In this document: one piece after another, positions 19,691-28,722 of the stretch
Layout of the letters: every line of letters begins with the position of its first letter
Position numbering within the stretch: position 1 is the stretch's first letter
Assembly: GCA_030148745.1 (NCBI GenBank)
Contig: JASBSV010000092.1
Coordinates: forward strand, 1 to 34,906
Length of the DNA: 34,906 nt
Source: Paracoccaceae bacterium
GTDB lineage: Bacteria > Pseudomonadota > Alphaproteobacteria > Rhodobacterales > Rhodobacteraceae
Direction of reading: 5' to 3'
The notes under the pieces: model-generated
The model's database searches: none
Told to the model about the DNA's origin: nothing
What the model saw: only the letters and a program-made list of their open reading frames with translations
Translations under genes and position numbers: made by a program

Positions 19691-19791
19691 GGCTGAGAGG
19701 TTGGCGCGGGCAGGCACCTCGCCAACCCGGTCAGATCCGGAAGGAAGCAGCCGTAACGAGCCTCGCTTGGGTCGTTGTCCAGCCTCTCACC
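19691..19791 (+). ncRNA. ffs: Signal recognition particle RNA, small bacterial (4.5S) type
   Basis: The conserved SRP domain IV is unmistakable: ggtcagatccggaaggaagc, then agccgtaacgag, with the GGAA apical loop and the asymmetric loop that bind Ffh. The ends pair as gagaggttgg (19695-19704) with ccagcctctc (19779-19788). The length of about 100 bases matches the short bacterial form. The RNA scaffolds Ffh and helps target nascent membrane proteins to the translocon. The exact 3' end is uncertain because no T-run terminator follows. Confidence 0.96.
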
Positions 19792-27532: not shown

Positions 27533-28236
27533 TCGGGGCCTCTGCTTTCCTTGTCGTGATCTTGCCAGTGGCCGGGAAAATCGCTCATCGGGGCCGGGGC
27601 CCTGACCCGGCTCAGCAGGGCATTGGGGCCGGCCATAAGCCGTGACAGAACGGGGTTATTGCGCAAACCGGCCTTGGCTTTTTCGATGCGCATCACATCC
27701 TCGATCCGCCGGTCCAGAAACTCCCATGTTGCCTGATGGCCGGGGCTGTCATCACCCAGCCAGAACAGAACGCATGATGAATAAACCCCTGAAAGCGTTG
27801 CACGTTTGGTGTACCAGTTGATATCGCGCGACGGATCGTTCAGCACGTTCCAGATGGTATCGGCGGTCTCCCAGATCAGGCGCGCGCCATCGCCGGCATG
27901 ATGCGGCAAGGCAAAAAGCGTCGTTGCCCGGCGCACCAGATCCTTGTCGGTTACCACTTCAAGCCGGGTGCGCACCGCAAGCGTGATCCTTTCGCGGATC
28001 TTCAGCACCGCCAGATCGCGCGCCCGGAGCCGCCGCACCATTTCGGCGTCACCGCGTTTGTGAAAAGCAATCGCCAGATCCAGACCGCCGCGTGGACAGA
28101 CCGCCCGCGCAAGCCCCGGATCTATTCCGGCATCGGCGACGGCAGCGGCAAAGCTGGCATCGCCCCAGCCGTCAAAGGGCACATGGGGCAGGATGGCATC
28201 AACAAGTGAATCTCGGGTCAGGTCATTGGGCTGCAT
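27529..28236 (-). CDS. COQ9 family ubiquinone biosynthesis protein
   Basis: A protein of about 235 residues of the COQ9 family, which binds lipid or quinone intermediates and helps COQ7-type hydroxylation in ubiquinone synthesis. It resembles the TetR fold: an N-terminal part (DSLVDAILPHVPFDGW) and a middle segment (SRDINWYTKRATLSGVYSSC followed by VLFWLGDDS) that is the family hallmark. A C-terminal amphipathic helix (FLDRRIEDVMRIEKAK) should sit on the membrane. ATG 28236 has CGGAGG five bases upstream. It is divergent from rpsU and the first gene of COQ9-quinone oxidoreductase. Confidence 0.93.
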   Translation of the reverse strand: MQPNDLTRDSLVDAILPHVPFDGWGDASFAAAVADAGIDPGLARAVCPRGGLDLAIAFHKRGDAEMVRRLRARDLAVLKIRERITLAVRTRLEVVTDKDLVRRATTLFALPHHAGDGARLIWETADTIWNVLNDPSRDINWYTKRATLSGVYSSCVLFWLGDDSPGHQATWEFLDRRIEDVMRIEKAKAGLRNNPVLSRLMAGPNALLSRVRAPAPMSDFPGHWQDHDKESRGPE

Positions 28237-28265
28237 ATCGGCCTCCGTTCCATATATCGCGGCAC

Positions 28266-28294
28266 TCGACAAGCTATATAGGCTTTGCTATACG
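28266..28294 (+). promoter_or_regulatory. Sigma-70-type promoter of rpsU
   Basis: A -35 TCGACA (28266-28271) and -10 TATACG (28289-28294) are separated by 17 bases. The transcript would start near 28301 and have a leader of about 47 bases. Confidence 0.5.
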
Positions 28295-28327
28295 GCCACT
28301 TCCTGCAAACTCTTGCAACTCAAACTT

Positions 28328-28347
28328 AGGAAGGTGGTGAAAACCAC
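28328..28347 (+). promoter_or_regulatory. rpsU ribosome-binding site with hairpin
   Basis: The Shine-Dalgarno AGGAAGG (28328-28334) is 13 bases from the ATG, longer than usual. Between them, gtggt (28334-28338) and accac (28343-28347) form a 5-bp stem capped by the GNRA tetraloop GAAA. When folded, the hairpin shortens the effective distance. Confidence 0.6.
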
Positions 28348-28554
28348 ATGCAGGTTAGCGTACGCGACAACAATGTCGATCAGGCCCTCCGGGCCCTGAA
28401 AAAGAAGCTCCAGCGCGAGGGTGTCTTTCGTGAGATGAAACTCCGTCAGGCATACGAAAAGCCCTCCGAGAAAAAAGCGCGCGAGAAGGCCGAGGCCATC
28501 CGCCGTGCTCGCAAGCTGGCGCGGAAAAAAGCGCAGCGCGAAGGGATGCTCTGA
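28348..28554 (+). CDS. rpsU: Small ribosomal subunit protein bS21
   Basis: A 68-residue, very basic protein matching bS21: it starts [20 protein letters not shown] and is followed by [20 protein letters not shown]. bS21 sits at the platform of the 30S subunit beside the anti-Shine-Dalgarno of 16S rRNA and helps initiation. The C-terminal helix is Lys/Arg-rich. It is flanked by a promoter at 28266-28294 and an intrinsic terminator at 28594-28628, so it is a single-gene unit. Confidence 0.97.
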
Positions 28555-28593
28555 GCATTGCTTTGTGCCGGCGGAACATCCCGCCAAACGACG

Positions 28594-28628
28594 ACCCCCG
28601 GTGCGAAAGCTCGGGGGTTTGTTGTTTT
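28594..28628 (+). terminator. Intrinsic terminator of rpsU
   Basis: A 7-bp stem (acccccg at 28594-28600, cgggggt at 28612-28618) continues inside to a GAAA loop and is followed by a T-rich tail. Two smaller hairpins lie further on (28633-28649 and 28652-28677), before the lytic transglycosylase gene. Confidence 0.88.
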
Positions 28629-28722
28629 AAGGGGCGGCGTAAATCCGCCATCCCGGGACAAGGGTTCTGTTCCCGGGGCCGGGCCGGGGTAAACTGCGAC
28701 GAGCCAAGCCCGAGGGCCCCAG

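Follow-up and report, generated by a model that had tools for sequence, protein, structure and literature searches.

The rpsU gene in the stretch of Rhodobacteraceae DNA analysed here (34,906 nucleotides, hereafter the window) is preceded by a short leader whose conservation is well supported. The leader combines an exceptional Shine-Dalgarno (SD) sequence, a hairpin (H2) that shares bases with this SD and abuts the AUG, and an mRNA 5′ segment complementary to the start codon region (H3, the clamp). We read positions 28300-28354 as a leader that controls translation of rpsU by allowing 30S subunits deficient in bS21 to favour the rpsU message, and put the chances of this reading at a little under even.

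The rpsU gene (28348-28554, + strand) encodes bS21, a protein of 68 aa that matches Pfam PF01165 (Ribosomal_S21, E 1.6e-20). Judged by Pfam, it is flanked by a divergent gene of the COQ9 family on one side (PF08511, 27529-28272, - strand) and by a transglycosylase gene on the other. The listed TTG start of the COQ9 gene at 28272 is probably too far upstream, and an in-frame ATG is found at 28236. The rpsU start region reads CCUGCAAACUCUUGCAACUCAAACUUAGGAAGGUGGUGAAAACCAC-AUG-CAGG. A possible extended -10 element (TGCTATACG, 28286-28294, + strand), recognised by eye in the window and in aligned relatives, would put the transcript start near 28299-28302; a consensus promoter scan of the window found nothing for the rpsU leader. 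Downstream of the gene a terminator-like stem with a T-rich tail (CCCCCG...CGGGGG, 28595-28625, + strand), also recognised by eye and absent from the list produced by the consensus scan, suggests that the transcript contains one gene. The window additionally carries a bacterial small signal recognition particle RNA at 19695-19791 (Rfam RF00169, 50.7 bits).

The extended SD (AGGAAGG-U-GGUGA, 28328-28340, + strand) is the segment of the leader with the strongest predicted pairing to the 16S 3′ tail. Of its 13 positions, 12 are complementary to UCACCUCCUUUCU, one of them through G-U, and a U:U mismatch stands at 28335. The 16S 3′ end (GGATCACCTCCTTTCT) was taken from two relatives, the window's own assembly having given no 16S match. 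The predicted energy of the SD:anti-SD duplex is -17.2 kcal/mol in the window. For comparison across the family we used alignment A1, which holds 133 of 134 unique Rhodobacteraceae leaders (141 collected, 7 duplicates removed; L037 excluded; the L167 row lacks 3 bases at the 3′ end). Over these leaders the mean predicted duplex energy is -17.3 kcal/mol (range -17.8 to -13.2), all 133 being at -13.2 kcal/mol or below; among the 181 family leaders read, 180 reach -13 kcal/mol, the exception being L037 at -11.2.

This strength sets rpsU apart from the two other ribosomal protein genes that we compared in the same 30 related genomes. Mean SD energies were -17.2 kcal/mol for rpsU, -8.2 for rpsP (bS16) and -6.5 for rpsT (bS20); the weakest rpsU SD (-15.7) is stronger than the strongest of bS16 (-9.7) and of bS20 (-12.7). 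Values below -13 kcal/mol were obtained for 30/30 rpsU genes, 0/30 rpsP genes and 0/30 rpsT genes. The rpsP genes of these genomes have ordinary AAGGAG-type SDs, and Rhodobacteraceae do use SDs outside rpsU too. Beyond the family, an SD at or below -13 kcal/mol is found in 16 of the 66 rpsU loci that could be read, and the mean is -10.8, with one 16S tail assumed throughout (L333 and L338 were unreadable and left out). The pattern RRAAGGNGGTGA occurs beyond rpsU as well, with 14 places in the window's genome, counted wherever they stand relative to genes, versus 2 for the reversed control.

Two features of the sequence around the SD deserve mention in their own right. The sole mismatch, U28335 facing a U at the centre of the SD core, is a U in 131 of the 133 aligned leaders and a C in the other two; the matching A occurs in 0/133. 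In addition, at window positions 28325-28329 and in relatives the complementarity to 16S extends beyond the usual tail: CUUAG stands ahead of the AAGG element in 56/133 leaders and matches AAG after CCUUUCU in the rRNA gene. Pairing of the rpsU leader with unprocessed 16S rRNA is conceivable.

H2 (GUGGU-GAAA-ACCAC, 28334-28347, + strand) is formed by GTGGT at 28334-28338, the loop GAAA at 28339-28342 and ACCAC at 28343-28347, directly ahead of the start codon at 28348, and masks the 3′ half of the SD. Its core pairs have a mean probability of 0.998 in the predicted ensemble of the window leader. The original prediction had placed this 5-bp GAAA stem between the SD and the AUG and had proposed that it alters their effective spacing. 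The stem does abut the AUG, but it is not located between the two elements: its whole 5′ arm is contained in the SD, so H2 and full SD pairing are mutually exclusive, and the idea of altered spacing is not supported. A true spacing device, in which the stem shortens the distance from an upstream SD (AGGA/AGGAAGG) to the AUG by looping out bases, is highly improbable; while an AG(A/G)AAGG element does lie upstream of most of the stem, the 5′ arm pairs with 16S within one predicted SD duplex, and with the stem closed the remaining half of the SD would lie nearly against the AUG.

As a single instance H2 is unremarkable, because an abutting hairpin of 5 Watson-Crick pairs occurs by chance at 20 of the 3014 ATG/GTG/TTG triplets on both strands of the window (~0.7%); it is conservation that makes H2 real. 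Likewise, the 81 bases around H2 do not fold much better than shuffled sequences (z -1.83; 12/200 as good). Over the 133 aligned leaders, 97.6% of the H2 cells are paired and the commonest pairs are kept in 125-131 leaders while the loop varies, which means that the stem is indeed retained in Rhodobacteraceae relatives. The changes are one-sided only, with 0 double-sided, and H2 therefore rests on conservation. The compensatory changes for which the original prediction had suggested searching the stem are thus lacking there; some are found in an upstream hairpin that it did not mention (H1, see below). Two-sided changes are not expected in H2, because variation of the 5′ arm would spoil the SD.

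The tetraloop itself varies: GAAA and GACA occur equally often (59 leaders each), column 53 of the loop being C in 74 leaders, A in 58 and U in 1, and 3-nt loops also occur. We dropped the notion of a short out-of-frame leader peptide read from the GTG codons of the SD: loop deletions would shift its frame, yet ACCAC stays. Where the loop has 3 nt (31 leaders), and with some altered 3′ arms, GGUG-GUGA-CACC is the most favourable fold, shifted by one base, and the same one-base shift is found in L035, L068 and L342. L347 has H2 in the register AGGU-GGUG-ACCU, and L051, with a variant spacer, belongs with L342 and L347 as an other-register form. Of the distinct tails that were sorted, 28/30 fold and two, from the basal leaders L076 and L153, do not; in these two the SD is present and H2 is absent. 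L341 lacks both CCTGC and a clean H2. Seven leaders with AGAGAGG stood outside the sorted tails and so were not folded; six of them end in GTGGTGAAAACCAC and one (L296) in GTGGTGTCTACCAC.

Comparison with the control genes sharpens this picture. A 5-bp hairpin at the AUG is shared by 29/30 rpsU leaders, as opposed to 0/30 for rpsP and 0/30 for rpsT, the spacers of both being unconserved in these genomes, and only 2.9% of permuted rpsU leaders have 5 bp or more at this position. Chance as the sole cause of H2 is rejected on the strength of the shared hairpin. With a random A/C-rich spacer placed after the SD, an equally good fold arises in 2-6% of cases if the common forms are the reference, and in 6-33% if the folded paralogues are. 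Since single folds are thus attainable by random spacers, the claim for H2 is carried mostly by the retention of pairs and by the contrast with rpsP and rpsT.

The predicted energy of H2 is marginal, about -6 to -7 kcal/mol. Marginal hairpins that mask the SD are typical of RNA thermometers, and such an energy would fit a leader in which a hairpin opposes a strong SD so that translation runs at a fixed or temperature-dependent rate, with no feedback by bS21. Such a leader would, however, leave both the strength of the SD and the alternative folds H1 and H3 unexplained, and we regard it as rather unlikely.

The clamp H3 would join the very 5′ end of the mRNA to the start codon. Its 5′ half, CCUGCA (28302-28307, + strand), contains CCTGC, which is found in 130/133 aligned leaders and 175/181 family leaders read; its 3′ half, UGCAGG (28349-28354, + strand), comprises positions 2-3 of the start codon, codon 2 and the first base of codon 3. 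Standard pairs make up 99.0% of the H3 cells in the 133 leaders, with a G-U replacement in 13 sequences and 8 cells unpaired, and the RNAalifold consensus consists of the H3 helix alone. In the 133 aligned leaders there are no double-sided changes in H3, only invariance and one-sided changes, and H3 consequently also rests on conservation. Codon 2 is CAG in 133/133 genes, while CAG makes up 454/568 of the remaining Gln codons in these genes (122/133 each at codons 12 and 22). In the 66 rpsU genes from outside the family codon 2 is CAG in 25 versus CAA in 29, and the paralogue L293 has CAA.

It is predicted that H3 together with H2 forms the more stable arrangement in 120/133 leaders. A probability above 0.5 is predicted for H3 in 122/133 ensembles, for H2 in 103/133 and for H1, which shares UGCA with H3 and excludes it, in 4/133. 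The two arrangements differ little in predicted energy in the window (-12.1 and -11.0). Overall the rpsU leader does not fold more stably than the rpsP leader (mean -15.9 vs -15.1).

H1 (UGCAA-ACUC-UUGCA, 28304-28317, + strand; general form UGCAN-loop-NUGCA) is a second hairpin 16 nt upstream of H2. Taken alone on alignment A1, 82.6% of its cells pair versus 79.0% in shuffled alignments. Cells with double changes number 23 against 7.3 in shuffles, a value reached by 0/500 shuffles, and slid versions of the hairpin give 2-13. These changes fall on two inner pairs: A-U is replaced by G-C in 6 leaders at one, and by C-G in 11, U-A in 5 and G-C in 1 at the other. On a rough FastTree phylogeny of the coding sequences, which carries no support values, the C-G, U-A and G-C replacements need approximately 5 changes each, and therefore do not represent one inherited event. 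The two measures of H1 that are least swayed by relatedness show no excess: pairs with a double change (2 vs 1.9 shuffled, reached by 435/500 shuffles) and further pair types (7 vs 7.2 shuffled). An H1 of 4-5 bp is present in 119/154 unique leaders as against 7.8% of permutations, in a test uncorrected for relatedness, and 35/154 lack a 4-bp H1. On balance, H1 is likely, though not proven, to be real. Its loop length is variable, and UGCAA/UUGCA as a dyad for a DNA-binding protein is disfavoured by this widely varying spacing.

Conservation by itself could in principle have arisen on DNA, with CCTGC and its neighbours kept as promoter or initially transcribed sequence and ACCAC kept for an unrelated reason. 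In 92 leaders CCTGC lies at a near-constant 17-18 bases after a TTGCTA-like element, and the lack of double changes in H2 and H3 would fit this explanation as well. The double changes and variable loop length of H1, on the other hand, are seldom shown by DNA sites, and ACCAC or its pairing survives loop deletions and register shifts; we accordingly consider a purely DNA-level origin improbable. Part of the conservation of CCTGC may nonetheless be at the DNA level. H1 does not explain the conservation of the CC, because these two bases lie outside it.

The leader is widespread in the family. A covariance model with H1 and H2 as structure, run with stricter filters that lose weak matches, found it in 269/295 family genomes at E 0.01 or better and in 241/259 of those of good quality. 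In a search of the class, likewise under stricter filters, 6/190 genomes had a match at E 0.1; strong matches (E about 1e-18) were limited to three, all Rhodobacteraceae, and the others ranged from 0.01 to 0.1. The rpsU region 28200-28660 has no counterpart in Rfam at E up to 1, and a leader of Rhodobacteraceae rpsU was not among the matches listed for the open-licence literature.

Some Rhodobacteraceae have extra copies of rpsU (L290-L300) that carry additional copies of the leader, at least one of them on a plasmid. In the diverged paralogues L294-L300 the SD has changed, yet 4-5 bp of H2 persist; in L295 and L298-L300 the clamp is lost. On the Sulfitobacter dubius plasmid NZ_CP085145.1 (L381) the clamp sequence is likewise gone and a 4-bp hairpin remains. 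The rpsU copy L292 looks internally deleted. A search of viral contigs for the string of SD, hairpin and start found none; among at least 20 records of phage bS21 there are distant forms only, the best having 62.5% identity over 59% of the protein.

Within the family the start codon of rpsU is ATG in 177/181 leaders read and GTG in four (L037, L076, L153 and L347), these four being the ones in which H2 is weak, missing or shifted. At the aligned position of the 66 readable loci from outside the family we found 33 GTG, 7 TTG and 7 ATG; one codon earlier there is TTG or ATG in 4 of the 66 and ATC, ATA or CTG in 15. In L132, L139, L335 and L340 no ATG, GTG or TTG occurs between the in-frame stop and the conserved region, and rpsU in these four appears to start with AUC or AUA. 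A rare start codon is also used by infC. Initiation of rpsU thus looks restrained throughout the class, perhaps by different means, and elsewhere in Alphaproteobacteria the very weak starts AUC and AUA may serve the same end as the proposed lock in the Rhodobacteraceae leader.

How might such a leader work? For the cell we infer the fold of the leader, its transcript start, the switch and the feedback by bS21, and the following steps are proposed on that footing. In the ground state the CCUGCA at the mRNA 5′ end would clamp the UGCAGG at the start and H2 would cover the 3′ half of the SD, so that with both closed ordinary initiation would be poor. A 30S subunit with a free 16S tail could form the full 12-pair duplex, at approximately -17 kcal/mol versus approximately -12 for H2 plus H3; its tail would invade H2, the clamp would open, and H1 would be able to absorb the released 5′ strand. 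As bS21 sits beside the 16S tail, subunits that lack it would differ in tail availability and so prefer the rpsU message; as bS21 fills up, translation of rpsU would drop. A message that combines an exceptional SD with a closed start could report whether the 30S tail is bound by bS21, in either direction. The most specific version, a ribosome-sensing RNA switch in which the rpsU mRNA uses its 5′ end to clamp the start codon and can be invaded only by a 30S subunit whose tail is left unshielded by the lack of bS21, is possible yet doubtful.

Alternatively, free bS21 could act as a classical ribosomal protein repressor that binds the leader and stabilises H2 and H3 or the single strand ACUCNAACUUAG. 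This stretch, conserved between H1 and the SD and thus between hairpins, stands ahead of what appears to be a one-gene ribosomal protein transcript, as such a mechanism might lead one to expect. A repressor alone does not explain the near-complete complement of 16S, however, and PMC10931766 describes bS21 as a loosely attached protein and one of the last to assemble, which also speaks against this role; we think it unlikely. Autoregulation that involves bS21 and the anti-SD, as originally suggested, is still the best reading of the sequence. If true, it would mean that control of bS21 by ribosomes lacking it is not peculiar to bacteria that hide the anti-SD and arose more than once; it would also offer a compact leader in genetically workable genera (Rhodobacter, Ruegeria and Phaeobacter), in the form of an RNA element new to Rfam.

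The closest known parallel is the autoregulation of bS21 in Bacteroidota. According to PMC9976891, ribosomes of Flavobacterium johnsoniae that lack bS21 favour rpsU through an extended SD, and pairing below -13 kcal/mol marks rpsU in that scheme. The Rhodobacteraceae leader is similar in the gene concerned and in an unusually strong SD along the 16S tail, with energies below the same value. Unlike the Bacteroidota case, its SD carries a conserved U:U mismatch at the centre and is predicted to form a hairpin, and the mRNA 5′ end may cover the AUG. Applying the Flavobacterium scheme unchanged is disfavoured, because other Rhodobacteraceae genes carry SDs, as seen for bS16 in the same 30 genomes. 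Hiding of the tail by the ribosome (bS21-bS18-bS6) is a Bacteroidota trait, whereas for Rhodobacteraceae the lock seems to lie in the mRNA. By this analogy the rpsU leader is best read as convergent with the Flavobacterium johnsoniae scheme, with a barrier that would reside in the message. Autogenous ribosomal protein leaders, such as several S15 leaders, also are conserved, apparently structured 5′ leaders confined to one bacterial family; here, in contrast, recognition would be by the ribosome through the SD and not by a bound repressor. Finally, as in RNA thermometers that mask the SD, a hairpin with the SD in one arm stands right before the AUG. Unlike in thermometers, the rpsU SD is far stronger than those of the two control genes and is accompanied by a second, mutually exclusive fold upstream.
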